A stretch of 64,000 bases of DNA, from the NCBI RefSeq assembly GCF_900167465.1, contig NZ_FUWR01000001.1:179269-243268 (forward strand). The letters are read 5' to 3'. Source of the stretch: Trichlorobacter thiogenes (lineage in GTDB: Bacteria; Desulfobacterota; Desulfuromonadia; Geobacterales; Pseudopelobacteraceae). Of the stretch, positions 45,946 to 62,038 are shown one piece after another (the stretch's first letter is position 1; each line of letters opens with the position of its first letter). A program made the position numbers and the translations under genes. Below the pieces are notes generated by a model. The model was not told the origin of the DNA, made no database searches, and saw nothing but the letters and a program-made list of their open reading frames with translations.

Positions 45946-46111
45946 TGCGTTGCATCATCATATTACGCACTCGCAACAAAGGAAACAACAGCTCCTCCAT
46001 GAAAATCAAACGGCTCTAGCGGGTTTCAGATTCTAATCTTCAAACTAGCTATTATATTTGATTATTTTTTTGCAGTTTTTTGGGTAGTGTCTCTATAGTG
46101 GCGAGCGTGAA

Positions 46112-46152
46112 AGCAAAAAGAGGGGGTAGGCACCAAGCCACCCCCTCTTTTT
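46112..46152 (-). terminator. Rho-independent terminator of the tail-module operon
   Basis: AAAAAGAGGGGGTAGGC / GCCACCCCCTCTTTTTT hairpin just after the tape measure gene; T runs on both strands. Confidence 0.85.
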
Positions 46153-46163
46153 TATCCCCCAAT

Positions 46164-49100
46164 TCATGGGTTGGGCCTGCTCATTTTTCGCCTTCGCAAA
46201 GCGGTGTTAAGTTCAGCCAGAACATCCATAGGGGCGCTAACCGGATAACTGCCACCACCGACATCCAGGCTGATGCTGCCCAGGTTCGGGATCGGGCCAG
46301 CTGCAGCCGCTGACGGAACGGCAACAGACTTTGAAAGCATCCCCTGCAGAGCCCTGCCAGCGCCACTGAACGGGGCATTGATAGCAGCCAGCAGGTTGTC
46401 ACCCCAAAAGCCTGAAGCCTTGTTGTTAATCACCCATTCGTTGCTGGCCAGCATAGCATGCACCGAATCCCGCAGGGGAGATCCATTGATTACCTTGCCG
46501 CCGGCAAAAAAACCATCCAGCGATACATCAGGATATGATTCGTACTTGTTATAATCTGGGCCAACCTGAGTGGATATAAGACCGGAATTGATAGCTGCCA
46601 ACCTTAACAGGGCCTCCCTAGTCGCTTGATAGCTTGCTGAATCAATCTTTACATCAACAACCACCGGCTTTTTCTCTTCTGCTGTGATTTTTTCTATTTG
46701 CACCTGCGCAGCCTGTAGCGAAGGCTCATCCAGTACAATCTTCAGAAACTTGTCATTTAATGGTTGAGCATCTATTTCTTTCAGCTTGTTCAGGGCCTGC
46801 TGAGGAGCGTCTTTCTTGGCTTCAAGTATAGATTCACCTTGACTCAGTACGCGCTTTAACCCTTCTGTTGCAACAGCAACATTGCTGTCAAGTCGGCTGG
46901 CAAGGTCTTCTGCCTGCTTGTTGTATTTCATGGCCTCATCATACAGCCCCTGTGCCTTTAACGCTTCTGCCTTGGCCAGGGCTTCATTCATGCGACGCTG
47001 GTTGTCGGCAAACTTCTGGGCATCGGTCATGTTCTTCTGCTGCAGGTCGGCGATCTTCTGCTGAACAGACATGCGGAAGTCTTTTATCTGCTGGTCGATT
47101 GCCTTGATTTCATCGGCATACTTACGATAGGCAGCACTTGAAGTATCCAGATAGTTCTTGTGGGCGGTCGCCATGTCACCCAAGGCTGCACGGTACTGAT
47201 CACTGTCTTTGGGATACAGTGCCGCAACATCCTGAAAATGAGCTGCTGCTGCCTGGTATCTGCGACGGCTGAAATCAATCTCCATCCGTTCAATTTCAAC
47301 CTGGGCTGCATACTGGGCTTTAACATTATTCCCAGCAGCGGCAGTCAGTAGAGCAGCCTTTGATTCCATGATGCCTCGGTAGGCCTCAAGCTCTTTCTGG
47401 CCGGATTCATAACCACGCTGGGCAGCATCAAGGGCCTGTTTCTTTCTCAGCTGGTCAATAGCGTCTGCCTTCTCAGCCTCAAGCCCCACCAATACCTTAC
47501 CACTGTCCCTGGCAGCGTCTTCAATGCCTTTGTAGTAGTCTTCAACCGCCTGCAGATCTGCCCGGTTCTTTGCGGCAATATCTAGGCCTTCGGCATCCTT
47601 GGTTTGGCCCAGTCGTTTCAGATGCTCAATCTTGTTTTTAAGTTCAGATGCGGCATTTCCTTCCTGTTCCTGTAAATCGGCTTTACGAATTTTATCAATG
47701 TCAGCATAGTAGGCATTTTCAACCTTCAGCTTATCATCCAACAGCTTATCAATGATCTTTTGTTCTTCAGCAGCATTGCCGTTGGCCGCTTTCAGATCCT
47801 GAGAAAACTTGGCCTCTACTGCTTTCAGGTCCTGATCATACTGGGACTTTCGCTTTGCCATCTGCCGTTCCAGCGATATCCCCACGGCTTTCTCATAACC
47901 GTCTTCAATCTGCTTGCGTTCAGCTGCTGCCTTTCTCATTTCTTCAGTAACCTGTTTGGTAGCCGCCGATGATCGGCCTGAAGCACCAGACGAATTGTCA
48001 AAGGCATTTGCCAGGGCAGACAGGGCGGCAATCACACCAACCAGTGCAGCACCGAAGGCCAGCACCAAGGGGTTAGCCAGCAGAGAAACAGAAAAAGCAG
48101 CAGTGGCCGTTGTGGCTGCCCAGGTTGCAGCTGCATAGACAGACTGGGCACTTGCAGCAATGGCAAGCGCCACCGAAGCAGCACCAAGCCCCACAGCCAG
48201 GCTTGAAAGCGATTGCCCCCAGGCATTGTGCGCCATCCAGTCAAGAGCAGACTTGGCAGCATTTGCCAGCCATGAAAGCGCACTGGCAAACTCACCAACC
48301 ACCTGCATCGGCTTTTGCCCCAGTACCGCCATCAGTTCAAAAGTGGCGGTCTTCAGCCGGTTCAGCTGTGCAGCAGGGCTGTTGGCAGCATCCATGGCTG
48401 CAGCTCCGTACAGTTCATGCAGATGCTTGGCAAGTTTGGGCAACACATCAGAAGCAAGCAGGTTGCCCGCCTCCATCTGTTTCAGCATTTCGCCGGTGGT
48501 CATTCCCATACCGGCTGCAACCGCCTCATAGGTCCCGGGCAGAGATTCAGCCACTACCCGCAGATCCTGGGCAGACACCTTGTTTTTGCTCATCATCTGC
48601 TGCAGCTGGGTCATGATCCGGTCGGTTGCATCAGCAGGCAGCTGCAGGGCGGTGACCGCCTCAGACACTGACGTGAACACCTCTTTTGCCTTCTGGCCTT
48701 CCAGTGAGGTATTGCGGGACGCTGCATTAAACTTGGCAAACGATCCTGCCACATCCACAAAGGAAAGCCCCAAGCGGTTGGCCTCTGCCCTGACATAGGC
48801 CAGATCCTTGCCAGCCAGTTCTGCTGATCCGCTTGAGGCCTTAAACATGGCATTCAGGCGATTCATTTCCATGGCTGGCCCGGCAAGGTTCAGCAGCGCC
48901 TGCCAGGCTGAATCAATGGCAGTCTTGATGTTGTTGAAGTAAAAGGATGCTTTCCCCACCCCTTTAAAGATCTCGCTCAGGGTTGCACCGGACTTCTGGC
49001 CAGCTGCAGCGGTATTGGCAAGCTCCCCCTGCAGATCCTTCAACTTGCTCTGCAGTGCAGTCTGTGCCCGTGCAACCTCTTCAGCAGAGGCCTTGCCGGA

Positions 49101-49340
49101 ATTCTTGATTTCATTGAAGGCGGCGATGATTTTGTCCTGCTCTGCCTTGATATCAAAGGCTGAACGGATATTAAGGGCCTTAAAGGCCTGTGCCGTCTGA
49201 TCAGCTGCCTTTTGTGCCGTAGGCCCAAGCTGATCCATTGCCTTCTTTGCATTGGCCATACCGGCTATTACACCGTTCATCACCGCCGTGAACATATCCT
49301 GGGCGGTAATGGTAAAATCTACTTTTTGTCCTGTTGCCAT
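46164..49340 (-). CDS. Phage tail tape measure protein
   Basis: 1058 residues. The conserved tape-measure N-terminal domain (about 150-345) reads EMNRLNAMFKASSG...DLAYVRAEANRLGLSF and QLQQMMSKNKVSAQDLRVVAESLPG. A hydrophobic block (about 370-440, Ala/Val-rich) may cross the host membrane during DNA entry. Long coiled coils follow (about 470-880). The protein sets tail length in long-tailed phages. If the usual 0.15 nm per residue holds, it predicts a tail of roughly 150 nm. No baseplate or tail-tip gene follows: the operon ends at the terminator at 46112-46152. Confidence 0.92.
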   Translation of the reverse strand: MATGQKVDFTITAQDMFTAVMNGVIAGMANAKKAMDQLGPTAQKAADQTAQAFKALNIRSAFDIKAEQDKIIAAFNEIKNSGKASAEEVARAQTALQSKLKDLQGELANTAAAGQKSGATLSEIFKGVGKASFYFNNIKTAIDSAWQALLNLAGPAMEMNRLNAMFKASSGSAELAGKDLAYVRAEANRLGLSFVDVAGSFAKFNAASRNTSLEGQKAKEVFTSVSEAVTALQLPADATDRIMTQLQQMMSKNKVSAQDLRVVAESLPGTYEAVAAGMGMTTGEMLKQMEAGNLLASDVLPKLAKHLHELYGAAAMDAANSPAAQLNRLKTATFELMAVLGQKPMQVVGEFASALSWLANAAKSALDWMAHNAWGQSLSSLAVGLGAASVALAIAASAQSVYAAATWAATTATAAFSVSLLANPLVLAFGAALVGVIAALSALANAFDNSSGASGRSSAATKQVTEEMRKAAAERKQIEDGYEKAVGISLERQMAKRKSQYDQDLKAVEAKFSQDLKAANGNAAEEQKIIDKLLDDKLKVENAYYADIDKIRKADLQEQEGNAASELKNKIEHLKRLGQTKDAEGLDIAAKNRADLQAVEDYYKGIEDAARDSGKVLVGLEAEKADAIDQLRKKQALDAAQRGYESGQKELEAYRGIMESKAALLTAAAGNNVKAQYAAQVEIERMEIDFSRRRYQAAAAHFQDVAALYPKDSDQYRAALGDMATAHKNYLDTSSAAYRKYADEIKAIDQQIKDFRMSVQQKIADLQQKNMTDAQKFADNQRRMNEALAKAEALKAQGLYDEAMKYNKQAEDLASRLDSNVAVATEGLKRVLSQGESILEAKKDAPQQALNKLKEIDAQPLNDKFLKIVLDEPSLQAAQVQIEKITAEEKKPVVVDVKIDSASYQATREALLRLAAINSGLISTQVGPDYNKYESYPDVSLDGFFAGGKVINGSPLRDSVHAMLASNEWVINNKASGFWGDNLLAAINAPFSGAGRALQGMLSKSVAVPSAAAAGPIPNLGSISLDVGGGSYPVSAPMDVLAELNTALRRRKMSRPNP

Positions 49341-49361
49341 GATTGATCACCCTATAAAGCC

Positions 49362-49392
49362 AAGTGGCTGGCTAAAACATAGCCAGCCACTT
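49362..49392 (-). promoter_or_regulatory. 12-bp perfect hairpin between chaperone extension and tape measure
   Basis: AAGTGGCTGGCT and AGCCAGCCACTT around a 7-nt loop, 22 nt before the tape measure start and overlapping the last codons of the -1 frame extension. It may attenuate transcription or protect mRNA. Confidence 0.6.
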
Positions 49393-49530
49393 GCTCCATC
49401 CTTTCTCATCTGTTGAGGCCGCACGCACTGCTGTAGAGATCCGCTTCATCTGCTGCAACTCTTCATCTTCCAGCGCTTTCAGTGCGGCCTTGAAATAACT
49501 TAGGCCGTAGCCCCATGCACCGGGGCCATG
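49372..49530 (-). CDS. -1 frame extension of the tail assembly chaperone (GT-type)
   Basis: In the -1 frame relative to the chaperone, codons run without a stop from upstream of the chaperone stop (49500) to TAG at 49372-49374. This adds about 43 residues after the stop (GLSYFKAALKALEDEELQQM ... KWLAMF). The sequence is rich in charged and aromatic residues and looks coding. There is no RBS for an independent start; a GGGG run (49511-49514) and a CCCC run (49522-49525) are the nearest slip candidates, though neither is a classical heptamer. Confidence 0.55.
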   Translation of the reverse strand, partial: HGPGAWGYGLSYFKAALKALEDEELQQMKRISTAVRAASTDEKGWSKWLAMF

Positions 49531-49868
49531 TCCGGCAGCAATGAGCCTGCAGACAGTGCTGACAAGTTCTGTCTCACGGTCTCGATCACCATGTCTCTGT
49601 ATCCCGCCAGAAGGACGTCCAGCGGGAGCAGGGCGAAAAAATCGGCGTTTACCTCCTTCACCTTCTCAAAGATGGTACGCAGTTCAGACGGGGTCAGGTT
49701 CAACAGAAAATCAGGGGTGGCATCGGTCAGCATGGTTACCAGCTCCTGCATGCCTGCCATCATATCAAGGGTAGAAAAGCGGTCCTTGAAATCCAGGATC
49801 TGACGCATGGTCAGCTCGTTGATGGTGATGACTCGTTCGTTAAGGGTTATGGTTGCAGTTTTTTTCAT
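49500..49868 (-). CDS. Tail assembly chaperone (G-type product)
   Basis: 122 residues: MKKTATITLNERVITINELTMRQILDF.., then a helical body (LTPSELRTIFEKVKEVNADFF, DVLLAGYRDMVIETVRQNLSAL). Position directly ahead of the tape measure and the length match tail assembly chaperones (lambda G / Mu gp41-like). In most long-tailed phages a second, longer product is made by programmed frameshift near the stop. Here the -1 frame is open past the stop to 49372 (see separate entry). AAGGAACAACCC precedes the ATG. Confidence 0.8.
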   Translation of the reverse strand: MKKTATITLNERVITINELTMRQILDFKDRFSTLDMMAGMQELVTMLTDATPDFLLNLTPSELRTIFEKVKEVNADFFALLPLDVLLAGYRDMVIETVRQNLSALSAGSLLPDMAPVHGATA

Positions 49869-49923
49869 GGGTTGTTCCTTTCATGTATCTGGTGGCGCAA
49901 TTTTGCGCCGGTTGTGGTTGTGG

Positions 49924-50193
49924 TTAATTTCTTATCTGAACATCAAGGTACTCGTTAAAGCCCTGCACAAGGCAAACATCAAACGCCTTATCGGTTTTAA
50001 GCCGTACAACATCTTCAAGCGAAACCTGCAGGGCTGCTGATTGCGGGGAAACGAAAACGGTTCTGCTTCTGCTGATCATCTGGCAGAAACCTTCCTCTTT
50101 GCTGGTACTCTGCCAGGCCATGCACTTGCTGGCCTCACACAGGCTTGAACGCTGCAGCGGGCATGATTTCTGTTTTGCTTCGGTTGTGGTCAT
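49924..50193 (-). CDS. Small cysteine-motif phage protein
   Basis: 89 residues. The N-terminal part KSCPLQRSSLCEASKCMAWQS has three closely spaced cysteines and could bind zinc. The rest is a polar alpha/beta stretch. AAAGG lies upstream of the ATG. It is located between the chaperone gene and the small coiled-coil genes in the same leftward operon. Not recognised beyond a likely phage origin. Confidence 0.6.
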   Translation of the reverse strand: MTTTEAKQKSCPLQRSSLCEASKCMAWQSTSKEEGFCQMISRSRTVFVSPQSAALQVSLEDVVRLKTDKAFDVCLVQGFNEYLDVQIRN

Positions 50194-50258
50194 AGGGTCT
50201 GGCCTTTCTGTCGCACGAGCATTGCTTCCAGGAAAACCGGCCTCCCGGAAGCAAAACG

Positions 50259-50432
50259 CTATATCGCCTTCATACGCTCGATGGACTCTGCCCGCTTACG
50301 ATCAACAAACGCCTTCAACTTTTCAATATGGTCAGAAACTGTTTTTTGTTGATTGTTAAACTGCGCTTCAAGGTGACGCAGGTGCCATTCAGCATCATTT
50401 AATGACCAGTTTTCATCAATTATCAGGTTCAT
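50259..50432 (-). CDS. 57-residue helical protein
   Basis: An unmarked small gene: ATG at 50432, AAAGGAT about 10 nt upstream, TAG at 50259-50261. The product is one long charged helix (MNLIIDENWSLNDAEWHLRH..., IEKLKAFVDRKRAESIERMK). It resembles the next small protein upstream in pattern (initial hydrophobic + NWSL/DWSL + heptads), so the two may be diverged duplicates. Function unknown. Confidence 0.55.
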   Translation of the reverse strand: MNLIIDENWSLNDAEWHLRHLEAQFNNQQKTVSDHIEKLKAFVDRKRAESIERMKAI

Positions 50433-50450
50433 TTTGGTGTTATCCTTTCG

Positions 50451-50615
50451 TTATGAGAATATGCTGGTTACTGGTAAGCGGCCATTCGGGTTTAGCTTAC
50501 GGGCCTTGAATTGCTCCAGCTGCTGAACTTCAGCCTTAATAGAATCGATTTTTGACAGGCGCTGTCTGATTTCGGAATCAATTTTATCAAGGCTCCAATC
50601 GTGATTTAAGAGCAT
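50451..50615 (-). CDS. 54-residue coiled-coil protein
   Basis: ATG at 50615 lies inside the end of the 195-residue gene (10-nt overlap, different frame), so it is translationally coupled. Product MLLNHDWSLDKIDSEIRQRL..., heptads to about 45, then SIFS. Similar layout to the 57-residue neighbour. Function unknown. Confidence 0.5.
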   Translation of the reverse strand: MLLNHDWSLDKIDSEIRQRLSKIDSIKAEVQQLEQFKARKLNPNGRLPVTSIFS

Positions 50616-51193
50616 TGCTGCGCCCCCTCAGGTGTCAGGTAGAGCTGTTCCGCCTCCAGCAAAAAGGGACGGGTGTTTTCTTCATGGGTAAAGCAGGCAT
50701 CGGTGACAAAATCTTTTATATGTTGATGGCGATCCGTCACATAGTACGGCAGACCGGCTGAATAGATGGCGACCGCTTTTTGCAAGGCCGGGGTCAGTTC
50801 TGCAAGCATCAGCTTGGCAGCCGCTGCATACACCGCACTCTTCTTGTTGCCCAATTTTGATTCAAGCTGATCACGGCGTTTCGATTCCAGTGTCTGACGG
50901 GTAAGCAAAAGAATCTCGTCATAGTCAGCGGCCTGTCTTCTGGCCTGTGCCAGCTGATCGCCTATCTTGTCAGCTGCATTAATCGGCTGGTTGCCTGCCA
51001 CAATATCGGCATGCAGGACAGAGCGTTGCTCTGTCAGAGACTTGATCCGGGCATCAATCAGGTTTATCTGCCTGGTAGCATCATCTACCCGGTCATCCAG
51101 CAGACTGATTTCTTTCAGCAGCTTTGCATGGTTCTCCATCTCCAAAAAATAGCGGTGTTGTGCTGTCTTCAATTCCTCTTGAATGTTTTGCAT
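50606..51193 (-). CDS. Coiled-coil phage protein of unknown function
   Basis: 195 residues. A long coiled coil (about 3-65, LLKEISLLDDRVDDATRQINLIDARIKSL heptads), a second helical region (80-120) and a more globular tail (from about 130) with YYVTDRHQHIKDFV. AAGGAGAAAAAACC precedes the ATG. It lies between the excisionase-like gene and two tiny coupled genes. No family was recognised. Confidence 0.65.
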   Translation of the reverse strand: MQNIQEELKTAQHRYFLEMENHAKLLKEISLLDDRVDDATRQINLIDARIKSLTEQRSVLHADIVAGNQPINAADKIGDQLAQARRQAADYDEILLLTRQTLESKRRDQLESKLGNKKSAVYAAAAKLMLAELTPALQKAVAIYSAGLPYYVTDRHQHIKDFVTDACFTHEENTRPFLLEAEQLYLTPEGAQQCS

Positions 51194-51253
51194 CGGTTTT
51201 TTCTCCTTGTGTGCCGGTCTGTGCCAGCGGTTTAAAATGGCCTCGTTTCAGTT

Positions 51254-51466
51254 CTATTGCCGATTGTCGATCTCGTCGTCGCTTTCCTCTTCGCATGTGC
51301 TGATCCTCTCAACATCCGCCTTCAGGATGTATGAACGTTTACTAAACCCAAACCGAAAGGCGGTAAGTTTTCCGTCTGCAATAAGTTTTTTCACCGTAGA
51401 CGGCACTACCCCCAGGCGGTTTGCTACCATTGGGATGGTTACAAATTCACACTTTTTAAAGACCAT
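51254..51466 (-). CDS. Excisionase-type winged-helix DNA-binding protein
   Basis: 70 residues from the ATG at 51466, preferred to a GTG three codons upstream. The MerR/excisionase helix-turn-helix is clear: FVTIPMVANRLGVVPSTVKKLIADGKLTAFRFG, then the wing residues KRSYILKADVERI and an acidic tail. Small proteins of this type act as recombination directionality factors or transcription regulators. This is the second such protein of the element (the other is at 55957-56208). Confidence 0.8.
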   Translation of the reverse strand: MVFKKCEFVTIPMVANRLGVVPSTVKKLIADGKLTAFRFGFSKRSYILKADVERISTCEEESDDEIDNRQ

Positions 51467-51593
51467 TGTGCCCACCCAAAACTTAAAAAGTGCGCCGTGG
51501 AACCTTGTGCAGCAAAAAGGGAAAGGAGCCTCTCAACTGCATATTCAGCCGGGGAGGCGCTGCATCAGATGGCGGTGCCCACCTGATCCCCTG

Positions 51594-51626
51594 CTTTCAC
51601 CGACACAACACCGGCAGCGGTGAAAG
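51594..51626. promoter_or_regulatory. Inverted repeat CTTTCACCG-N15-CGGTGAAAG
   Basis: Perfect 9-bp arms at 51594-51602 and 51618-51626, between the 52-residue gene and the excisionase-like gene on the minus strand. It may be an attenuator or an operator. Confidence 0.5.
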
Positions 51627-51645
51627 GTTCGGTTCAGACATTAGA

Positions 51646-51804
51646 CTACTCTGCAGCTATCTCAGCCTGAATCTGTTCAATTTTGGCCTGCATACGGCAG
51701 GCTTGCTCTTGCGTCTTGTCGGCTATGTCCTCCAGGGCCTGCATGTAGCCCTTTAAAAACACCAGCCGGACCTTGCCTGGTAACTCTTCAAAATTCTGTG
51801 ACAT
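51646..51804 (-). CDS. 52-residue helical protein
   Basis: ATG at 51804 with AAAGGAGAAAAAACCT just upstream; TAG at 51646-51648. Product MSQNFEELPGKVRLVFLKGY..., then a heptad helix EQACRMQAKIEQIQAEIAAE. The RBS spacing and sequence copy those of the 195-residue gene (GGAGAAAAAACC), suggesting duplicated or uniform translation signals in this operon. Function unknown. Confidence 0.55.
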   Translation of the reverse strand: MSQNFEELPGKVRLVFLKGYMQALEDIADKTQEQACRMQAKIEQIQAEIAAE

Positions 51805-51840
51805 AGGTTTTTTCTCCTTTCTCTGGTTGGTTCGCTGCTA

Positions 51841-52128
51841 TCAGGCAGCTTTCAGTTTTGATGCTGTGGCAGATGCTATCTGCTGCTGCAGCAGCTTTTG
51901 CTCCAGCCGGTCGTCTTCAGTTACTGCATCATCAGGTGCCAGCCATTTGATGATGTCATGCAGCATAAAGCTCAGGCCTTCGTATGGTGACGACCCATCG
52001 CTGTATTTCCTGTGTTGCAACCCAAGGCCATCAATGCCCAACTGAATGGCCCGCAATTGGTGGCAGGCCCGTTGCATTTCGTCAAAATCGTACACAACGC
52101 CTTGGCTGATATCTCGCTTGTCTTGCAT
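51841..52128 (-). CDS. Small hypothetical phage protein
   Basis: 95 residues: MQDKRDISQGVVYDFDEMQRACHQ..., central LSFMLHDIIKWLAPDDA and an Ala/Gln-rich helical end. No family recognised. It begins 4 nt after the neighbouring 76-residue gene on the same strand, so the two are coupled. GGAGGC precedes the ATG. Confidence 0.6.
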   Translation of the reverse strand: MQDKRDISQGVVYDFDEMQRACHQLRAIQLGIDGLGLQHRKYSDGSSPYEGLSFMLHDIIKWLAPDDAVTEDDRLEQKLLQQQIASATASKLKAA

Positions 52129-52132
52129 GGGT

Positions 52133-52363
52133 TTAAGCCTCCTTTTCTTTCATTGCCTCAGTTAACCAGTGGTGACCCTCTCCAATATCTTCGCAAATGG
52201 CGTCAAAGATTCCACACAAGCCGCTAGATATTTGCAGGTCGCTTAGATTTATGTGGACAGGCGCATTGCCAAGGCTGGTCAGTAGCACTTTCATAACTTC
52301 AAGCCGTTCCAATGCCCCTTCAATCAGATCTAATGCATGTTCAGGTGCCAATGGTTTTCCCAT
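52133..52363 (-). CDS. Small hypothetical phage protein
   Basis: 76 residues, acidic and mostly helical: EHALDLIEGALERLEVMKVLL..., CGIFDAICEDIGEGHHWL. AAAGGAAC precedes the ATG at 52363. It is the first of a run of small genes downstream of the DUF927 gene. No family recognised. Confidence 0.6.
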   Translation of the reverse strand: MGKPLAPEHALDLIEGALERLEVMKVLLTSLGNAPVHINLSDLQISSGLCGIFDAICEDIGEGHHWLTEAMKEKEA

Positions 52364-52466
52364 GTTCGTTCCTTTCTGTTTGTGGTGTAAGTGGTGTGGT
52401 ACCCGCCCACAGGGTGACAGTCCGCCTGCCCGTGGGGGCTGGCTGCGGCCTGGACCCTATGGACGG

Positions 52467-54494
52467 CTACAGTTCTTCCTCAGTTGCTGCAGCATCAAGA
52501 TTGATGCGGTAGTATCTGGCAGATTTCAGGCCAGGAAGGCGTTGCATGGTGGCCTCTGCCTTGCCCTTGTAGAGCATCCCTTTTTCAGCCAGTATTCGGG
52601 CTGCCACACGGGGATCAAAGCCCTGCACGATTCGATTGAATGACTGGGGTAGCACGTAGTATTCGGTATGCCGTTCATCAACCAGATCGGTTGTCACCAC
52701 CAGATCACGACGGTAGCCGTACATGTCGATCACCTTGTCCTCTACCAGTTTGTCTTGATAGAACCGCTTGAACCGGCTGTCACCGTGGGCCTCAAAAAAG
52801 CCCAGCACCTGCTTCAGCAGTTCTTGCGGTTCCTGCTGGCCTGCCCCGCCCCGGTGGGCAATCCAGGCCTTGAAACAGACACCGGCAGCCCAGAAGGCAT
52901 CGCCCTTGTTCCAGCCGGTAATACCCCAGATGGTGGCCAGTTCTCCGGCTGCGGCTGCCAGTGCAAACCGGTTAAGCATCCGCAAGGCCTGCGAGGCGGC
53001 GTCTTTGGGGCGGTTGGCTGCTGAAAATTCAGCCATCAGTTTCTTGGCCTGCTCTTTGGCGGATTCAGGATCGGCAGCTATCTTTGCGACAAAGGTGGTA
53101 AAGGCGGTGCCATAGTGGCGGTGGGAGGCCTGTTTCAGTTCATCTGCAAGGGCCTGGGCAGAGGCACGGTTGTTGATGGTGTCAAAGATACCAAGGCCTT
53201 TTCCGGCATCTGCAGGGATATCTGCAAGGCGCTGTTCCTGCCCTGCGTACAGACGGCCACCTTTGGCGTTTGAGAGGTCTGCAAGGCCGATCTCACCAGA
53301 GGAGAGCAACACCAGCCGCCAACTACTCCCCCCCTTTGACCCGCCGGACAGGTTGGCCCGGCTCCGGCCTTTTCCGTTCAGAATGTGATAGGCCGTCATT
53401 CCTGCTATTTCTGCAGCGAGTTGCTTCATCTCATCCAGGATTAAACCAGCATCGTTACAGAGGGTGGCCACCGCCTCCAGGCCGTTGCTGGTGGCGTTCC
53501 AGGTGGTGACTATTTGGCGAGGATTACCAAACAGGCTGGCAACGATGATCAGAATGGTGGATTTTCCGATGGATGAATCCCCCAGCAGGTTGAAACCGCT
53601 GTTTTCCATCTGCAGCAGATGGAGCAGGGCGCTGGAAAAGCCGATTGAAACCGCAAACACTGGGCGGCTGTTGCCTTTGATGGGAACTGAAACGTGGTGT
53701 TGCCAGTCTTCAAGGGTGTTGTTGCTGCTGAAACGGTGGCCATCATCCCCCACGTAGTGAACCAGTTCTGAAGTCTGGCCAATGCACCGCTCTGGCGTGA
53801 CATAAACCAGTTCACCGGTGGGCAGTTGCAGCCAACCGGTTTGGGCCGTGGTTCTGGCCCGGGCCTTGGGGTCTTTTTGCAGCTTGCGGTTTGCCTCAAG
53901 GATGAAGTCCATCAGCTGGCCCTTGGCCTTGTAGCTGGTGGCAATGGTCAGGCCCATGTCCAACAGGCTGGCGCGGACATCTTCTGCACCGGCCTTCAGC
54001 AGCTTCATCGGCATGATCCAGGTGTGCAGGTGCTGGTCATGGTCTCTGAACTGCACCAGCATGCCCCAGCCTTCCTGCCGGGCATCCCGTACCAGGGCAA
54101 CCGGCAACAACCATGAACAGACGAAAATCTCTTTGACCACCGGCTCCTCACCGTCTCTGCCATCCTGCTGATGGAGGAAAAAGACGCCGGTGCCTTTAAC
54201 GACATAGGAGCCAAAGCGTTGTATTGCTGTTTTGGCACCGGCCTTCAGCAGCGGGTGTGCAAGGGGATCACCCAGCAGGGCGGCCTCTTCCCGTACCCGT
54301 GCCTCAACTGCTGCTTTGTAATCCACCTTTGCCATGGGCGGCTGATCAGCCGGGGCTGATGCCGGTGCTTCTTCAGCCGGTGCGGTTTCTTCTGCTGCCA
54401 AAGCCGGTTTTGCAGCAGCCTTGCGGCTTTTGGCTGGCTTTGCCGGTAATACGGTTGATTTTGCTTTACTTTTTCCGGTTTTTGGGGTAGTCAT
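52467..54494 (-). CDS. DUF927-type replicative helicase/primase-like ATPase
   Basis: 675 residues from the ATG at 54494; a TTG four codons upstream is an alternative, and neither has a strong RBS. After a Lys/Ala/Pro-rich N-terminus (about 1-55) the protein shows the DUF927 pattern: an N-terminal region with GVFFLHQQ..VVKEIFVCSWLLP and WLQLPTGELVYVTP, and the ATPase core with Walker A LLGDSSIGKSTIL near 310 and Walker B GLILDEM near 358. DUF927 proteins are found in prophages and integrative elements and are thought to drive element replication. In this element it takes the place of the P4 alpha-type replication protein. Candidate origin repeats lie just upstream (54526-54699). Confidence 0.87.
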   Translation of the reverse strand: MTTPKTGKSKAKSTVLPAKPAKSRKAAAKPALAAEETAPAEEAPASAPADQPPMAKVDYKAAVEARVREEAALLGDPLAHPLLKAGAKTAIQRFGSYVVKGTGVFFLHQQDGRDGEEPVVKEIFVCSWLLPVALVRDARQEGWGMLVQFRDHDQHLHTWIMPMKLLKAGAEDVRASLLDMGLTIATSYKAKGQLMDFILEANRKLQKDPKARARTTAQTGWLQLPTGELVYVTPERCIGQTSELVHYVGDDGHRFSSNNTLEDWQHHVSVPIKGNSRPVFAVSIGFSSALLHLLQMENSGFNLLGDSSIGKSTILIIVASLFGNPRQIVTTWNATSNGLEAVATLCNDAGLILDEMKQLAAEIAGMTAYHILNGKGRSRANLSGGSKGGSSWRLVLLSSGEIGLADLSNAKGGRLYAGQEQRLADIPADAGKGLGIFDTINNRASAQALADELKQASHRHYGTAFTTFVAKIAADPESAKEQAKKLMAEFSAANRPKDAASQALRMLNRFALAAAAGELATIWGITGWNKGDAFWAAGVCFKAWIAHRGGAGQQEPQELLKQVLGFFEAHGDSRFKRFYQDKLVEDKVIDMYGYRRDLVVTTDLVDERHTEYYVLPQSFNRIVQGFDPRVAARILAEKGMLYKGKAEATMQRLPGLKSARYYRINLDAAATEEEL

Positions 54495-54525
54495 AAAGGC
54501 ATCCAATCTTGTTTTTCTTCAGTCT

Positions 54526-54561
54526 TTGAACCCTCTACTGGTTGCCTCCGGTAGGGGGTTC
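54526..54561. promoter_or_regulatory. Long hairpin upstream of the DUF927 gene
   Basis: TGAACCCTCTAC and GTAGGGGGTTCA pair around a 12-nt loop (one mismatch region). It lies 32 nt upstream of the DUF927 start and may control replication or translation. Confidence 0.5.
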
Positions 54562-54622
54562 AGTCGTTTCGGGAGTGTTGCTATCACTAAAAACCTTAAT
54601 AATTTCAGCTTGTATCGTGTGT

Positions 54623-54652
54623 ATCAGTTTGTTACAACTTCACGAAACTGAT
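54623..54652. promoter_or_regulatory. Inverted repeat ATCAGTTT-N14-AAACTGAT
   Basis: Perfect 8-bp arms in the AT-rich gap upstream of the DUF927 gene. Confidence 0.5.
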
Positions 54653-54681
54653 TTTATTTAATAATTTCGGACGTATAGCAG

Positions 54682-54699
54682 TGTTTCAGCTGTTTCAGC
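54682..54699. repeat. Tandem TGTTTCAGC repeat (iteron-like)
   Basis: Two exact 9-nt copies side by side; a related ATTTCAGCT occurs at 54602-54610. They lie in the 233-nt gap (54495-54727) beside the replication-type helicase gene, the usual place for a replication origin. Confidence 0.45.
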
Positions 54700-54727
54700 G
54701 CCAAACAATACATAGGGTAAAAAAATC

Positions 54728-55045
54728 TTAAACTTCCGGGGCTGGGGTCTCTGGTTCGATCAGCCGGGGGTACAGCCCATCCATTTGGCACTGAATCTGT
54801 TTCAGCATCTGGCAAAGAGTTTCATCACCATGACCAGCTGCGTACTGGTTGGCGGCATCGATAGAGTCTGCCAGCTGGGAGAGCTGGTTGATGGATGGTA
54901 AGATGAGTGTTCCAAAGTGGATCGGTTCAGGCTTGGAGATACTGGCAGCATCACCAGCCAGCTGCAGCAGGCGGGCCTCATGCTCGGCGGTAAAGCGGGC
55001 AGCAATATTCTGTAGTGCTTGGGGGATCTGGTCTTGAAGTGACAT
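54728..55045 (-). CDS. Small hypothetical phage protein
   Basis: 105 residues, helical and acidic: MSLQDQIPQALQNIAARFTA..., LPSINQLSQLADSIDAANQYA, ending PETPAPEV. Starts 3 nt after the 84-residue gene, AAGGAG upstream. Last gene before the regulatory gap ahead of the DUF927 gene. No family recognised. Confidence 0.6.
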   Translation of the reverse strand: MSLQDQIPQALQNIAARFTAEHEARLLQLAGDAASISKPEPIHFGTLILPSINQLSQLADSIDAANQYAAGHGDETLCQMLKQIQCQMDGLYPRLIEPETPAPEV

Positions 55046-55048
55046 GGT

Positions 55049-55303
55049 TTAGTCTCCTTGCTGGGTGGCAACAGGTGCTATTCTGTCGTTTGGGTAAAGG
55101 GTGTTCTGCACTTCCACCAGCATGTTCAAAACATCATCCAGCAGCCAGCCAAGCCGGTTGGAAACCTCAACGCTTTCCTCATCGTAGGCGCGACCATGCA
55201 GCTGCCCATGCTGTTCATCCGCCAGCACCAGGTAATGGCGCATGTGCTCCAGTTTTAAGGATACGTCCGGCAGTGTGCGGGTGTGGGTGTCTGGTGTATT
55301 CAT
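55049..55303 (-). CDS. Small hypothetical phage protein
   Basis: 84 residues: MNTPDTHTRTLPDVSLKLEH..., then GRAYDEESVEVSNRLGWLLDDVLNML. Overlaps the minor tail Z-like gene by 4 nt, so its translation is coupled. A four-helix or coiled-coil fold is likely. No family recognised. Confidence 0.6.
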   Translation of the reverse strand: MNTPDTHTRTLPDVSLKLEHMRHYLVLADEQHGQLHGRAYDEESVEVSNRLGWLLDDVLNMLVEVQNTLYPNDRIAPVATQQGD

Positions 55304-55935
55304 TGTGTTACCCCCAATCTTTTCATTTCATGGTTGAAGCGGGTGGTGAAGGTGGTCTGAACAAACTGGGTCAGGGGTTTCAGGATTTCTGGTTTACCGA
55401 TCATTGAGGCTGGAGAGATTACTGCTGATTCTGCAATGGGGAGACGTTCTTTCCCCAGCCGCCGGAAAACACCAACGTGGGTGCCGGTTGCGCTGCCCTT
55501 GCCAAACTTGACCCCTGCCAGAAACTGCCGAAGCTGGGTGGTTTTGCCTCTCTCTATCTGGACCCGGACACCTACCTTGCCCCGTTTGATTGCGGTGACG
55601 CCTTTACGGCCCCGCTTGGTCATGCCTGCCGATGTCCGGCGATATTCAACAGCCCCGAAGTAGACCAGGCTGATACCCCCAGCCAGAAAACTGATGGTTG
55701 CGGTAAGATCGTCAGTCACCCTACCCACTGCCTGGATACGTGGCTTTCCTGATGCCTTGTTCAGCAGATCTGTCTGATTGATGTTGTACCTGCCCCTGAT
55801 CAGGCGGCTGGCTTCGGTAAGGGTGCTGGTCTGTACACGAGACATGGCAAGCTTTGCAGCTTTACGGACCTTGCCAACGTCGCCTTTCGCTTTTTGCATG
55901 GCCTCGTTAAGTCCCTTGACCGACATATTCATCAT
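55300..55935 (-). CDS. Prophage minor tail protein Z-like (GpZ family)
   Basis: 211 residues, strongly basic. The pattern matches the prophage minor tail protein Z family: KAAKLAMSRVQTSTLTEASRLI, YNINQTDLLNKA, SFLAGGISLVYFGAVEYR, GVRVQIERGK, THVGVFRRLGKERLPIAESAVISP. In lambda, gpZ acts at the head-tail connector end of the tail. Here the gene lies in the early position, directly after the AlpA-like gene and before the replication gene, far from the other tail genes. Its use by this element may therefore differ from that in a normal tail. Confidence 0.8.
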   Translation of the reverse strand: MMNMSVKGLNEAMQKAKGDVGKVRKAAKLAMSRVQTSTLTEASRLIRGRYNINQTDLLNKASGKPRIQAVGRVTDDLTATISFLAGGISLVYFGAVEYRRTSAGMTKRGRKGVTAIKRGKVGVRVQIERGKTTQLRQFLAGVKFGKGSATGTHVGVFRRLGKERLPIAESAVISPASMIGKPEILKPLTQFVQTTFTTRFNHEMKRLGVTQ

Positions 55936-55956
55936 GGTTGACTCCTTTCTGCCTTT

Positions 55957-56208
55957 CTAGGCTGCCTGCTGCTGGGTGGTGTGCTGGTTTTCAGTTCGGC
56001 TGGCGATGAATGCCTGAACTGTAGAGAGACGGTAACGAACTGCTTTTCCCAGTTTGACGTATGGGGGGAGGTCGGAAGTTCCGTAGACTCTGGCACGGTT
56101 CAGGGTTGATACTGCCAGGCCAAGTACGGAGGCTGTCTCCTGGACGGTAAGCAGACGGTCACTGCTGATCGGTTCAGGTTGCTGGGTGGTAGGCGAGTTC
56201 TTTTGCAT
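55957..56208 (-). CDS. AlpA/excisionase-family DNA-binding protein
   Basis: 83 residues with a winged helix-turn-helix (LLTVQETASVLGLAVSTLNRARVYGTSDLPPYVKLG..VRYRLSTVQAF) flanked by Gln/Thr-rich tails. This is the AlpA-like / excisionase class seen in P4-like satellites and integrative elements, where it controls excision or early transcription. It is the first gene of the leftward operon and is transcribed away from the repressor across three operators. Confidence 0.85.
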   Translation of the reverse strand: MQKNSPTTQQPEPISSDRLLTVQETASVLGLAVSTLNRARVYGTSDLPPYVKLGKAVRYRLSTVQAFIASRTENQHTTQQQAA

Positions 56209-56243
56209 GGTGTGGACTCCTTTCGTTTAATGTGTGATAGAGT

Positions 56244-56272
56244 TTGACTACGATTTAAATCGTATGTACGAT
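56244..56272 (+). promoter_or_regulatory. Repressor promoter (autoregulated)
   Basis: TTGACT (56244-56249), 17-nt spacer, TACGAT (56267-56272). Operator 1 lies in the spacer and operator 2 covers the -10. Confidence 0.6.
56249..56264. promoter_or_regulatory. Operator 1 of the lysogeny-type switch
   Basis: TACGATTTAAATCGTA, a perfect 16-bp palindrome between the divergent AlpA-like and repressor genes. Confidence 0.8.
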
Positions 56273-56291
56273 AAGAATCGTATGGTGTCAA
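56263..56291 (-). promoter_or_regulatory. Leftward early promoter for the AlpA-like operon
   Basis: Minus strand TTGACA (56286-56291), 17-nt spacer, TACATA (56263-56268). Overlaps operators 2 and 3, so repressor binding would block it. Confidence 0.5.
56267..56282. promoter_or_regulatory. Operator 2
   Basis: TACGATAAGAATCGTA, 14 of 16 positions symmetric, same half-site as operator 1, 18 nt from it. Confidence 0.8.
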
Positions 56292-56305
56292 CGATTAAAA
56301 TCGTA
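56290..56305. promoter_or_regulatory. Operator 3
   Basis: AACGATTAAAATCGTA, same half-site. It ends just before the AGGAG of the repressor gene, so occupancy could also limit repressor expression. Confidence 0.75.
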
Positions 56306-56317
56306 GGAGCGTAATAA

Positions 56318-57061
56318 ATGGCAGCAAGACCGGCTGGTGGGGGAGTCACTCCTGAAAGAGTAGTCAAGCTTTTACGAGAGGAAGTGGCGAAAACAAGTCA
56401 GGCAGCAACGGCAAGGGCGACTGGTCTAACACTCCGGGGAGTTCAAAACTATCTCAAGGGCATAGGCGATCCCACCACTGCAACCCTGCAGAAGTTGGCT
56501 GATTATTTTGGGAAGTCTGTAGCGTATTTGAGAGGGGAAGAAACCGAGAACAGAATTTCTAAAGTCAGAATAGTAAAAGATTTGATCCAAAAGCCGGGGT
56601 TCTGTGACAATCCTCAAAAGATTGCCCAGTACATCGGTTATTACGGGCTTAAGGCTTCAGCAGAAGAGGTTTCAAGTTCGTTATTGCCTCAGGCTATACA
56701 TGAGTTGACCAATGCAGGTAATGATTACGAAAAGGCCTCACAAGAGACTATTCAAAATATCGTTATTCCAATTTTAACTGAGGTAGCCTTCTTCGGAGGC
56801 ACCAAAGAAGATTTTATTAACCAGTTGGAGCTTAAAGGCATTTCAATTACGGGGTACGATATTGGGCTTACATTTGCTGATGTCGAAAAGGAATTTGCAA
56901 AAATCAGAAAGGACATTGCAAAAGAGCTTGGCATTTTTGAGTCAACTTTACTGGAAAATGCAAAAGCTTTTTTGGCTATACCAGAGGAAAGACGTGAAGA
57001 AGCTCTGGCAATCCTGCAGCGTGAAGGGATCATCCCCCCAACTACAGACCCGGTGAAGTGA
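56318..57061 (+). CDS. Helix-turn-helix repressor of the element
   Basis: 247 residues. An N-terminal XRE-type helix-turn-helix (about 10-75: VVKLLREEVAKTSQAATARATGLTLRGVQNYLKG..DPTTATLQKLADYFG) is followed by a helical C-terminal region of about 170 residues with no LexA/S24 protease motif. It should therefore be inactivated by a route other than RecA-stimulated self-cleavage, for instance an antirepressor. AGGAGCGTAATAA precedes the ATG. Three matching operators lie between it and the AlpA-like gene. Confidence 0.85.
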   Translation: MAARPAGGGVTPERVVKLLREEVAKTSQAATARATGLTLRGVQNYLKGIGDPTTATLQKLADYFGKSVAYLRGEETENRISKVRIVKDLIQKPGFCDNPQKIAQYIGYYGLKASAEEVSSSLLPQAIHELTNAGNDYEKASQETIQNIVIPILTEVAFFGGTKEDFINQLELKGISITGYDIGLTFADVEKEFAKIRKDIAKELGIFESTLLENAKAFLAIPEERREEALAILQREGIIPPTTDPVK

Positions 57062-57392
57062 GGTTTTCTCACTTCACCCATAAACCATAAACCACCACCA
57101 GCCATCACCCGCCCACCTCATCACCCTGCATCCACCGTTTTTGATTTTATTTTTCCCCTTGTATTGGTTTGCCCTGAAACAGCAGCTACAGCGAAACAAT
57201 GCTGAAATCATTGGACAAAACAGCATTTTTGAGTATGTAACAAGCTGATACATATGATACACGCTGATATTGTTGGTGTTTTTGGTGGTTGGGTGGGGTA
57301 ATTGAGCAAGAAGATGATGAGGGCCGGTTGCAAACTGCCAAAGTCTTGCTACAGTTGGCTGTAGTTTCTGATTCTTCTAAGGAGCATTCCCC
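57062..57392. other. Intergenic region upstream of the HsdR-N-like gene
   Basis: 331 nt without a convincing gene. It contains the first copy of a 157-nt direct repeat unit (57141-57297), a possible promoter TTGCAA-N16-TACAGT (57329-57356) and a small hairpin CTACAG-TTGG-CTGTAG (57349-57364) directly ahead of the RBS. Confidence 0.6.
57141..57297. repeat. 157-nt direct repeat unit, copy 1
   Basis: The outer 34 nt (57141-57174) are identical to 58576-58609, and the other outer 34 nt (57264-57297) match 58699-58732 at 33 of 34. The interior is the same length (89 nt) in both copies but strongly diverged. The right end is G/T-rich (GGTGGTTGGGTGGGG) and could form a two-tier G-quadruplex. Confidence 0.8.
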
Positions 57393-58565
57393 ATGCCAGA
57401 TTTTAAAGATCGCCTTGTCCGCCACGCTGAGCATATCAAGAACGTAAGCAGCCATTGCAGTACTGAGGAGACCACCAAGCAGGCGCTTATTCTACCCCTG
57501 CTGGATGCCTTGGGTTTTAGCCCCTATGATCCGACGAAGGTGCAGGCAGAGTACGGGGCAAATCTGCCAGGTATCAAGGCCAATGAGAGGGTGGATTATG
57601 CCCTGTTTGTGGCTGGTAATCCGGTTATGTTCATTGAGGCAAAGTCTTGTTCTGATAAGCTTACCAACCATACTGGCCAGCTGGTGAGATATTTCAACTC
57701 TACCCCTGGGGTTTCAGTGGCAGCCATTACCAATGGTCGTGAGTGGCGGTTTTACAGTGATCAGAAGCATACGAATATTATGGATACGACTCCGTTTCTT
57801 GTGGTGGATTTTGAGTCTCTTGCAGATTCTGACGCTGATAAGCTTTCTCGCTTCAGGTACGATAAATTCAATCCTGATGGTTTACGCAGTTTTGCAGAGG
57901 AGCAGACGTTGCTTGAGTGCTTTACCGCTGCTATTGAGAGTTGCTTGCGGGAGCCTGATGCTGATTTTATCCGGTTTGTGGCCACCAGATCAGATGCTGC
58001 TGGCAGGTTGACCCCGAAACAGGTTGAAGCGTACACGCCTATTGTGAAGCAGGCCTTGGTAGAGGCTATCAGCAAGGTTGTTGTGGGTGGGCTGTCTGCT
58101 CCTGTGCCTGCCCCGGCAACGGAACCGGCTGCAGTACCACGCTGTGATTGCCCCGATGGTGATGTTGTCGATCCTGATAATCCCAAGATTGTTACGACTG
58201 AGGCTGAACGCCGGGTGCTGGCACTGGTGCAGGCCATTCTGGACGGTAAGGCAGAAGAGTCTGAGATAGTGGGGAAGGATACAGAGAGTTATTTTTCTGT
58301 TTGCTATCAAGGGAAGAACAATCGCTGGCTGTTGCGCTACCACGGGGATAGAGCCACCCCGTACATCAGCTTCAATATCCCGATGACGCTTGAGCGCACG
58401 AAGCAGGCAGCCAGGGCAGGTTTGGTGGTTCAGCCAAACAATACGATCGCTCTGGTGAAGCCTGAACATCTGATGAAGCTTTCAAATGTGCTGTTTGATG
58501 CACTGGAGTTTTGCAAGAATGATGAGAATTTTAAACGGAAGGGTAATGGTGAAGAGTCAGCGTAA
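57393..58565 (+). CDS. Orphan HsdR N-terminal-domain-like nuclease protein
   Basis: 390 residues. Residues about 20-150 resemble the N-terminal nuclease domain of type I restriction subunits: TKQALILPLLDALGF, then RVDYALF...PVMFIEAKS, the Asp and Glu-x-Lys of a PD-(D/E)XK site, and QLVRYFNSTPGVSVAAITNGREWRFY. There is no helicase and no hsdM or hsdS nearby. The C-terminal part (about 255-380) is a separate domain of unknown role. AAGGAGCATTCCCC precedes the ATG. It is framed by 157-nt direct repeats and is probably cargo, possibly anti-phage. Confidence 0.82.
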   Translation: MPDFKDRLVRHAEHIKNVSSHCSTEETTKQALILPLLDALGFSPYDPTKVQAEYGANLPGIKANERVDYALFVAGNPVMFIEAKSCSDKLTNHTGQLVRYFNSTPGVSVAAITNGREWRFYSDQKHTNIMDTTPFLVVDFESLADSDADKLSRFRYDKFNPDGLRSFAEEQTLLECFTAAIESCLREPDADFIRFVATRSDAAGRLTPKQVEAYTPIVKQALVEAISKVVVGGLSAPVPAPATEPAAVPRCDCPDGDVVDPDNPKIVTTEAERRVLALVQAILDGKAEESEIVGKDTESYFSVCYQGKNNRWLLRYHGDRATPYISFNIPMTLERTKQAARAGLVVQPNNTIALVKPEHLMKLSNVLFDALEFCKNDENFKRKGNGEESA

Positions 58566-58575
58566 TGGGTATACT

Positions 58576-58732
58576 TTGATTTTATTTTTCCCCTTGTATT
58601 GGTTTGCCCAGTTAGTGCCGTTAATCAGTTAAGTTACTGATATAAATAAGCAAAATAGCCATTTTCAACAAGTTAAGGCCGGTTAGGCGGGTTAAGTACT
58701 GATATTGTTGGTTTTTTTGGTGGTTGGGTGGT
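58576..58732. repeat. 157-nt direct repeat unit, copy 2
   Basis: See copy 1 at 57141-57297. It starts 11 nt after the HsdR-N-like stop. The interior has four GTTAAG/GTTAGG units. It ends GGTGGTTGGGTGGTGGG. Confidence 0.8.
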
Positions 58733-58785
58733 GGGATGTTAGCAGGCAGCATTGACATTATGTTATTTTGTAGTTATAAATAATC

Positions 58786-59061
58786 ATGCGTTATGAGCGG
58801 GATGAAGATAAGCGACTGGCAAATCTTGAAAAGCACGGGCTTGACCTTGCTGATGCCGATCTGGTTTACGAGCATCAGCAAAAGCTGACGGTGCCCTGCA
58901 AAACCACCCATGAAGAACGGTGGCAGGATTTTGCAGAGGTTGACGGCATTCTTGCCGTGCTTACCTGTGTGTACACCAGGCGGAATGATACGGTACGCTT
59001 TATTTCGTTCCGCTATGCCAGTCGTAAGGAAAGGAAGGTGTATTATGGGGCAGATCGTTAG
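58786..59061 (+). CDS. brnT: BrnT-family toxin (type II toxin-antitoxin)
   Basis: 91 residues with the BrnT layout: a short acidic/basic start (RYERDEDKRLANLEKHGLDLADADLVYEH), a central DGILAVLTCVYTRRNDTVRFISFRYASRKER and a terminal Tyr. BrnT has a RelE-like ribonuclease fold; the R...S.R.A..ER segment carries the catalytic Arg/Ser type residues. The antitoxin starts 17 nt before its stop, in the usual toxin-first order. No strong RBS is visible. Confidence 0.88.
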   Translation: MRYERDEDKRLANLEKHGLDLADADLVYEHQQKLTVPCKTTHEERWQDFAEVDGILAVLTCVYTRRNDTVRFISFRYASRKERKVYYGADR

Positions 59062-59380
59062 CCATACCAGTGAAGAGCTGAAGGCCATGCGCGCCCGTGG
59101 CGAATCAAAAAGCGACTGGACACGGGTAAAACGTAACTATGACGCCGGTATTGAACCTGCTGCTGACGAAGATAGCCCGGACATGTCGGCTGCTTTACGG
59201 GAGCATGTGGCAACATTGAAGCGAGGCAGGGTACTGGGCAGCGGAACCAAGGTACAGAAGACGGTACGGTTTGATATTGCGGTGTTCGAGGCGTTTAAGG
59301 CAACCGGTAAGGGGTGGCAGACCAGAATGAATGAGGCCCTTAAAACCTACCTGAAGGAACATCCGCTTAATCATGTGTGA
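59045..59380 (+). CDS. brnA: BrnA-family antitoxin
   Basis: 111 residues from the ATG at 59045, overlapping the toxin gene by 17 nt; GGAAAGGTG is upstream. The N-terminal part (SEELKAMRARGESKSDWTRV) binds toxin. The C-terminal ribbon-helix-helix (KVQKTVRFDIAVFEAFKATGKGWQTRMNEALKTYL) binds DNA and should autoregulate the pair. Confidence 0.88.
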   Translation: MGQIVSHTSEELKAMRARGESKSDWTRVKRNYDAGIEPAADEDSPDMSAALREHVATLKRGRVLGSGTKVQKTVRFDIAVFEAFKATGKGWQTRMNEALKTYLKEHPLNHV

Positions 59381-59439
59381 CCAGCGGATAGGCAGGCAGC
59401 AATAGAGTATTTTACCCCCCAATGCTTTCAGCATGGGTG

Positions 59440-59470
59440 CGAGGCGCTGCAAAGCGCCTCTGCTATTTTA
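59440..59470. terminator. Bidirectional terminator between two toxin-antitoxin operons
   Basis: GAGGCGCT-GCAA-AGCGCCTC stem followed by TGCTATTTT on the plus strand; it separates the convergent brnTA and hicAB pairs. Confidence 0.7.
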
Positions 59471-59882
59471 AAGATCCGCCACCCGCGTGCATAATTCTGT
59501 CCATTGCAGCGTTTACCAAAAACCGGCTGCGAGTTTCACCTTTTGCAGAAGCATAGCGGTCTATCCTGCTTAAAATACGCTTGGGCATACTGATATTCAC
59601 CCGTTCTGAGGTGTCATCAAGCAATGTACTGTCAACCTCAACCACCGCCCAGATCCATCCAGCATAATCAGGATCCTTTGCATAGTCTGCGACCCCCTTG
59701 GGCTCTGGTATGGTTCCACCGTCATCAAGTACGGTTTCAATCCACAAGGCTATGGCCTCTTTGCTGTTCTCTATCGCTTCATCCAGCGTATCACCGGCAG
59801 AAAAACAGCCGGGAAGATCAGGTACCTCTACGCCAAAGGCGGTGGTCTCACTGCCTGGTTCTATCACTATCGGGTATTTCAT
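59463..59882 (-). CDS. hicB: HicB-family antitoxin
   Basis: 139 residues. The N-terminal partially degraded RNase-H-like domain (YPIVIEPGSETTAFGVEVPDLPGCFSAGDTLDEAIENSKEAI) binds HicA. The C-terminal ribbon-helix-helix (VNISMPKRILSRIDRYASAKGETRSRFLVNAAMDRI) binds the operator. It follows hicA by 11 nt, and GGGGAAAACC precedes the ATG. Confidence 0.92.
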   Translation of the reverse strand: MKYPIVIEPGSETTAFGVEVPDLPGCFSAGDTLDEAIENSKEAIALWIETVLDDGGTIPEPKGVADYAKDPDYAGWIWAVVEVDSTLLDDTSERVNISMPKRILSRIDRYASAKGETRSRFLVNAAMDRIMHAGGGSLK

Positions 59883-59893
59883 GGTTTTCCCCT

Positions 59894-60073: not shown

Positions 60074-60074
60074 C

Positions 60075-60091
60075 TTGTGTATTATACACAA
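60075..60091. promoter_or_regulatory. hicAB operator overlapping the -10 box
   Basis: TTGTGTAT-T-ATACACAA is a perfect 17-bp palindrome directly upstream of the hicA ATG. On the minus strand it contains TATAAT. It is the likely HicB binding site. A related TACACAC-CG-TACACA stretch lies at 60117-60131. Confidence 0.7.
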
Positions 60092-60598: not shown

Positions 60599-60626
60599 TT
60601 GTACATTTTGCATCTTCGGTTATAGT
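60599..60626 (+). promoter_or_regulatory. Candidate promoter of the nucleotidyltransferase operon
   Basis: TTGTAC (60599-60604), 16-nt spacer, TATAGT (60621-60626), about 43 nt before the ATG. Confidence 0.5.
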
Positions 60627-60668
60627 AATTGTAGTTGAGTCCAACACATAAATTTTCTATGGGGACTT

Positions 60669-62035: not shown

Positions 62036-62038
62036 TGT

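Follow-up and report, generated by a model that had tools for sequence, protein, structure and literature searches.

The element at smc and its leftward operon

The DNA analysed here (the window) comprises 64,000 nt of the Trichlorobacter thiogenes genome (3.57 Mb; G000:C29:179269-243268), and all coordinates below are those of the window. It holds most of an integrated element, a probable phage satellite, which spans 45999-64900 (18,901 bp) and whose integrase end and right boundary lie outside the window. The element is bracketed by a 14-bp direct repeat, ATGAAAATCAAACG: the left copy reproduces the first codons of smc, and the second is the true smc start (L002:4169, equal to 64900). In the congeners G009 and G011 the left flank is continuous with an intact smc, and both represent empty sites. 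Past 64000 we found the remainder of a tyrosine integrase, then smc (intact), ftsY, zapA and rny; phage structural or packaging genes do not occur in this sequence. A preliminary description of this locus had proposed a search for capsid genes just past 64000, which was thus negative, and had placed the element at 46112-56317; the operon part of that proposal held, whereas its limits did not, as the element also includes a cargo block and the integrase. A DNA comparison against 72,556 plasmids gave no match to the element.

The leftward operon (46164-56208, minus strand) starts with an AlpA-like gene and ends with the gene for a tape measure protein (TMP), followed by a terminator-like hairpin. 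Its features, together with the left attachment (att) site and the integrase, are listed below with the evidence for each (HTH, helix-turn-helix; ORF, open reading frame; dN/dS, ratio of nonsynonymous to synonymous substitution rates).

45999-46012, plus strand: attL core ATGAAAATCAAACG, copy of the first smc codons (sequence; empty sites in G009 and G011)
46112-46152, minus strand: terminator-like hairpin GAGGGGGTAGGC..GCCACCCCCTCTTTTTT closing the operon (sequence; kept at the left end of the G005 copy)
46164-49340, minus strand: TMP, 1058 aa (Pfam TMP_3, 4.6e-25; PHROG tape measure, 2.8e-29)
49372-49560, minus strand, bounds approximate: putative -1-frame, gpT-like extension of the chaperone (homology to -1 extensions of phage chaperones)
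49500-49868, minus strand: tail assembly chaperone (TAC), 122 aa (phrog_1442, 3.5e-6; tblastn; structure model)
49924-50193, minus strand: small ORF, 89 aa (75% identity in G014; no Pfam match)
50606-51193, minus strand: coiled-coil protein, 195 aa, a marker gene common to the element family (profiles; predicted structure)
51254-51475, minus strand: second HTH_17 protein, excisionase-like (Pfam; 96% identical in G014)
51841-52363, minus strand: two small ORFs, 95 and 76 aa (ORF list)
52467-54506, minus strand: DUF927 primase-helicase (PF06048, 4.2e-62; phrog_1139, 2.5e-67; dN/dS 0.13 versus G014)
54728-55303, minus strand: two small ORFs, 105 and 84 aa (ORF list; homologues in G014)
55300-55935, minus strand: GpZ / Neck1 tail completion protein (phrog_27, 1.5e-19; 47% identity to a G010 prophage protein)
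55957-56208, minus strand: AlpA-like HTH_17 regulator (Pfam and PHROG scans)
63531-64000, minus strand, continuing to about 64844 (L002:2800-4113): tyrosine integrase, 437 aa, 3' part in the window (Phage_integrase, 3.3e-14; Arm-DNA-bind_3, 7e-10)

The genes named in the preliminary description were all present at the coordinates it gave (Pfam, PHROG), and its statement that capsid, portal, terminase and lysis genes are missing was borne out, as no ORF of the element could be assigned to any of these in Pfam and PHROG scans or from the ORF list. All ORFs of at least 300 aa inside the element encode the TMP, the DUF927 protein, the integrase, an HsdR_N-like protein or PDC-M63B; the remaining ORFs are too small to fit a portal or a large terminase. 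Tube, sheath, terminator, baseplate/tip and fibre genes were not found among the element proteins either (Pfam and PHROG). By these assignments the TMP, the TAC with its predicted frameshift extension and Neck1/GpZ are the only virion genes of the element. What lies between the att sites is not a complete prophage, since capsid, portal, terminase and lysis genes are missing there; it is a discrete integrated element with an integrase and att repeats that lacks part of the virion genes, the packaging genes and the lysis genes, as phage satellites in general do.

Conservation of the tail genes and their relatives

The same smc site is occupied in a second species of the genus (G005), where the integrase is 89% identical and the left end with its terminator matches. 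Of the G005 TMP the last 642 codons remain, the rest having been cut by an IS21-type insertion. Over these codons the TMP showed a dN/dS of 0.12 (dS 0.9), equal to that of the smc control; the value for the integrase against G005 was 0.08 and that for DUF927 against G014 was 0.13. Purifying selection has therefore acted on the TMP during most of the period since the G000 and G005 copies diverged. The stretch from TMP to att is homologous in the two copies, and tail-tip genes were therefore lost, or were absent, before this divergence. To judge from this shared junction, the selection on the TMP and the retained -1 extension of the TAC, the element is not a prophage that has only recently decayed. 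A further copy of the backbone lies at smc in Geobacter sp. UBA6802 (G014; integrase 87%, DUF927 90% and HTH protein 96% identical), where an HNH gene follows the 89-aa ORF just before the contig end. This contig end (L066:15204-15575) consists of near-identical tandem repeats.

A tblastn search with the TAC gave matches at the TAC position adjoining phage TMPs, and its -1-frame extension RLIAAGHGPGAWGYGLSYFKAALKALEDEELQQMKRISTAVRAASTDEKGWSKWLAMF matches those found in IMG/VR phages on TACs encoded upstream of the TMP. On this basis, the TAC and its putative extension are arranged like G and GT of siphophages. The in-frame T TTT TTC (NADFF) was rejected as the slippery site since it comes too early for the conserved C-terminus, and no single canonical site was fixed. 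A sequence search of the TAC against PDB gave no meaningful match. Its predicted structure (mean pLDDT 71) had the PLE1 chaperone 5ir0 and the HK97 chaperone 2ob9 among the top Foldseek matches, and VIA-align gave Z scores of 5.8 for 3klu, 4.0 for 5ir0 and 3.5 for 2ob9. The AlphaFold model of the coiled-coil protein is a long helical hairpin; it matched generic coiled coils only, which gave no support to a role as a Sid-like or scaffold protein.

Homologues of the tail genes were found in real phages. A prophage contig of G010 carries a TAC, a TMP (31-41% identity), tail-tip-like genes and the GpZ homologue (47%), and terminase, portal, TMP and GpZ relatives occur together on IMG/VR contig 3300046011_008672. 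These phages exemplify the kind of siphophage that could be helper or donor. In related phages (L067:14704-15447; L252/L253) the GpZ homologue is located near early regulatory or replication genes and away from the tail genes, as it is in the element. Annotated phages matched the TMP domain only, with less than 37% identity among the matches listed. Single-query searches of genome and viral contigs recovered only G014 with DUF927 and nothing with the TMP.

Sister elements combine other integrases and replication genes with a TMP and a varying partner gene or genes. The G112 element has an integrase, repressor, AlpA, coiled coil, D5 helicase, CHC2 primase, TAC and a TMP of 1148 aa, and the G077 element has a serine recombinase, coiled coil, DnaB, TAC and a TMP of 894 aa. 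Capsid protein E (7e-45) accompanies TAC and TMP in G094; at smc, an HK97-type capsid protein (5e-52) and Neck1 (3e-22) accompany the TMP in G051, and a head protease (6e-74) accompanies it in G113/G109. The G112 (L070:7077-14282) and G094 (L106:7872-11159) elements occupy one chromosomal site with similar D5/CHC2 modules, the virion genes being TAC and TMP in the former versus capsid, TAC and TMP in the latter. Within the order, the coiled-coil profile also recovered G093 (DUF927, coiled coil, GpZ), G016 (disrupted by an insertion sequence) and G057 (protease at the contig end). In the wider phylum it recovered G343, from a distant family, with capsid/protease (1e-94), Neck1 (4e-26), D5 primase and TMP (3e-14), and G288, which has no virion genes. 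The weak phylum matches in G315, G449, G455, G251 and G332 were taken as coiled-coil noise without inspection of their surroundings. Leave-one-out profiles backed the family for all members except G051, with G343 the weakest accepted. With G051 left out and the near-identical G113 and G109 counted once, the coiled-coil elements examined numbered 11; at least one virion gene was present in 8/11 and a TMP in 6/11. A portal or terminase was seen in none of the 11, the relatives having been covered by ORF inspection and PHROG scans of selected proteins rather than of every ORF. The terminase genes of G113, G014 and G051 are on contigs other than those of their elements.

Repressor region and cargo block

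Upstream of the operon lie a divergent repressor with its putative operators and, beyond it, the cargo.

56250-56304, no strand: three operator-like palindromes ACGATnnnnATCGT between AlpA and the repressor (the only three copies in the whole window)
56318-57061, plus strand: HTH repressor, divergent to the operon (HTH_3, 1.6e-9; N-terminus 81% identical in G112)
57393-62978, no single strand: cargo block with HsdR_N-like gene, BrnT/BrnA, HicB-like gene, candidate defence pair PDC-M63A/B and a 259-aa protein (Pfam, padloc)

The trio of ACGATnnnnATCGT palindromes recurs at the equivalent place in the G112 element. Within the cargo block, the candidate defence pair PDC-M63A/B occupies 60669-62035 (padloc 1e-52 and 1e-102); in the G112 sister element a SIR2 protein (PDC-S25) is encoded next to the TMP, at that end of the element. 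The HsdR_N-like gene is bracketed by direct repeats at 57140-57296 and 58575-58731 (a spaced pair of 35 and 33 nt with a diverged middle, 1435 nt apart), which suggests a cassette-like insertion. The HicB-like antitoxin (59463-59882) is 98.5% identical between G000 and G014 (L066:6789-7190) versus 65-90% for most backbone proteins, and this suggests that the elements exchanged cargo recently. At a separate place in the host genome (G000:C11:1190-2973; L033, L169) there is a second, split DUF927-type protein of about 33% identity, possibly part of another element.

Proposed chimeric particles and the alternatives

We consider it probable that the element is an 18.9 kb integrative phage satellite which builds chimeric virions by placing its own TMP and TAC on the particle of a helper. 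The preliminary description had likewise proposed a satellite with its own partial tail module, and this idea gains support from the att sites, integrase and empty sites, the primase, the missing packaging and lysis genes, the G005 and G014 copies, the sister elements, the selection on the TMP, the -1 extension of the TAC, the operators shared with G112 and the precedent of the PLEs (below). Gene content, boundaries, empty sites, selection and recurrence can all be read from the DNA itself. Several findings weigh against this interpretation. Each fold match of the TAC is weak on its own (Foldseek E 0.29; Z 5.8). The G014 backbone has no GpZ, and its contig stops before any TMP position is visible. 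As G005 tolerates a broken TMP, the tail module is not indispensable for persistence. A helper was not found in the host genome, where no phrog_2-type terminase was present, other terminase families not having been searched.

Helper dependence, particle composition and tail length we infer as follows. On infection by, or induction of, a helper siphophage, the element would excise and replicate via the DUF927 protein. TAC and TMP would be provided in trans to the helper's assembly line: the element TAC would coat the element TMP, and the helper tail-tube protein would polymerise on this scaffold with the helper tip complex. GpZ may complete the top of the tail or the head-tail joint, and the capsid, portal and terminase of the helper would package the element. 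The length and ejection behaviour of the chimeric tail would then be set by the satellite TMP, and such tails could favour satellite over helper particles or evade tail-targeting defences. With about 0.15 nm per residue, the 1058 residues of the TMP would correspond to a tail of roughly 160 nm. Swapping or re-sizing of the helper tail is, by analogy, the most likely mechanism.

The closest precedent comes from the PLEs of V. cholerae, in which TMP and TAC build chimeric tails (Mathur, Boyd et al., Nature 2026; PMC12987554). PLE11 virions contain the PLE TMP and have tails about 10 nm shorter, and deletion of tmp cut transduction by 96-99.9% across PLEs (PMC12987554). Like the PLEs, the present element is an integrated element of satellite size with its own TMP and TAC and no complete tail, and the best PDB matches of its TAC model include the TACs of PLE1 (5ir0) and HK97. 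However, it resides in another host phylum, has a siphophage-type TMP_3 and adds Neck1/GpZ in place of BhuB, and its helper is inferred. Nothing in the tyrosine integrase, the DUF927 primase or the smc att site points to the PLE family. That satellites may carry a TMP is not a new idea, because predicted tmp genes were already reported in PLE-like elements and some cf-PICIs (PMC12987554, Ext. Data Fig. 10). The cf-PICIs resemble the element in carrying part of the virion; however, they encode the head and packaging set and borrow tails, whereas the arrangement here is the reverse. The element is not a cf-PICI, as it has no capsid and packaging genes of its own, and single capsid or protease genes were seen only in its sisters. 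With respect to the canonical PICI gene order, what was observed is an integrase, a divergent repressor/AlpA pair and a primase.

The earlier label P4-like was apt as a loose analogy of toolkit only: an AlpA-type regulator, an integrase, an autonomous primase-helicase and defence cargo are shared, but Psu, Delta/Ogr, Sid and P4 alpha were not found in a Pfam scan of all leftward-operon proteins. P4 is not known to carry a TMP. In SaPIbov5-type satellites the Ccm protein, a homologue of one helper virion protein, redirects assembly (PMC8569155); there it is a capsid protein and here TMP and TAC, although the G094 and G051 sisters do bear capsid proteins. The Pseudomonas element AH14b (16.8 kb) has its own primase and is packaged in helper virions, but none of its proteins was detected in the particles and it has no tail genes (PMC4936722).

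The main historical rival is a defective prophage in which TMP, TAC and GpZ survived by chance when the genes for head, packaging, lysis and tail tip were lost. These three genes do have homologues in real phages (the G010 and IMG/VR contigs), and G005 is proof that such elements decay. However, the junction of TMP, terminator and att is common to two species, the TMP evolved under the constraint described above, and the frameshift extension of the TAC is intact. Independent elements with other replication genes retained a TMP together with a different partner, and the coiled-coil profile matched no prophage among the 141 genomes of the order. We regard this explanation as unlikely for the present element, although a remote ancestor may have been such a prophage. 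The main functional rival is interference by the TMP/TAC/GpZ set, in which surplus, mismatched TMP and TAC would poison the tail assembly of an infecting phage to the benefit of the host, and the set would play no part in particles of the element's own. Prophage and satellite defences are known to act on tail assembly and especially on the TMP (Tab, PMC10884400; Tai, PMC11364771; Rta, PMC12987554), and the element bears other defence-like cargo (PDC-M63). However, the three genes are within the primase-bearing leftward operon, TMP and TAC at its end, and outside the cargo block; the same slot in sister elements holds capsid proteins or head proteases; and the PLE TMP is a structural part. Such a device is in our opinion rather improbable. 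A tailocin or other tail-derived particle, also raised in the preliminary description, would fit virion genes of tail type only, but it is very improbable because tube, sheath, terminator, baseplate/tip, fibre and lysis genes are all missing, and the backbone is that of a mobile element with primase and integrase.

Beyond the single element, the relatives with their differing small subsets of virion genes suggest that the swapping of single virus parts is a recurring strategy of satellites. There is about an even chance that they constitute an undescribed satellite lineage, present in Geobacterales and in the phylum at large, whose mark is a coiled-coil protein of about 200 aa beside a variable virion slot. 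Its members would replace one or a few helper parts at a time (most often the TMP, otherwise chaperone, Neck1, capsid protein or head protease), each building its own chimeric particle, with assembly perhaps guided in part by the coiled-coil protein. What is new here is the lineage, the addition of Neck1 and the varying virion slot with its coiled-coil neighbour.

Chimeric tail assembly by a satellite was shown only in 2026, in one Vibrio family, with a few further bioinformatic cases. Our results indicate that TMPs encoded by satellites are a recurrent feature of an unrelated phylum too, where integrases, replication modules and partner genes are different. They also indicate that the tail module is one of several possible occupants of its slot, capsid or neck genes being others. 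The coiled-coil protein serves as a marker gene for finding further elements, and the question of why a satellite carries its own tail ruler becomes testable in terms of length, DNA ejection, helper exclusion and escape from tail-targeting defences.

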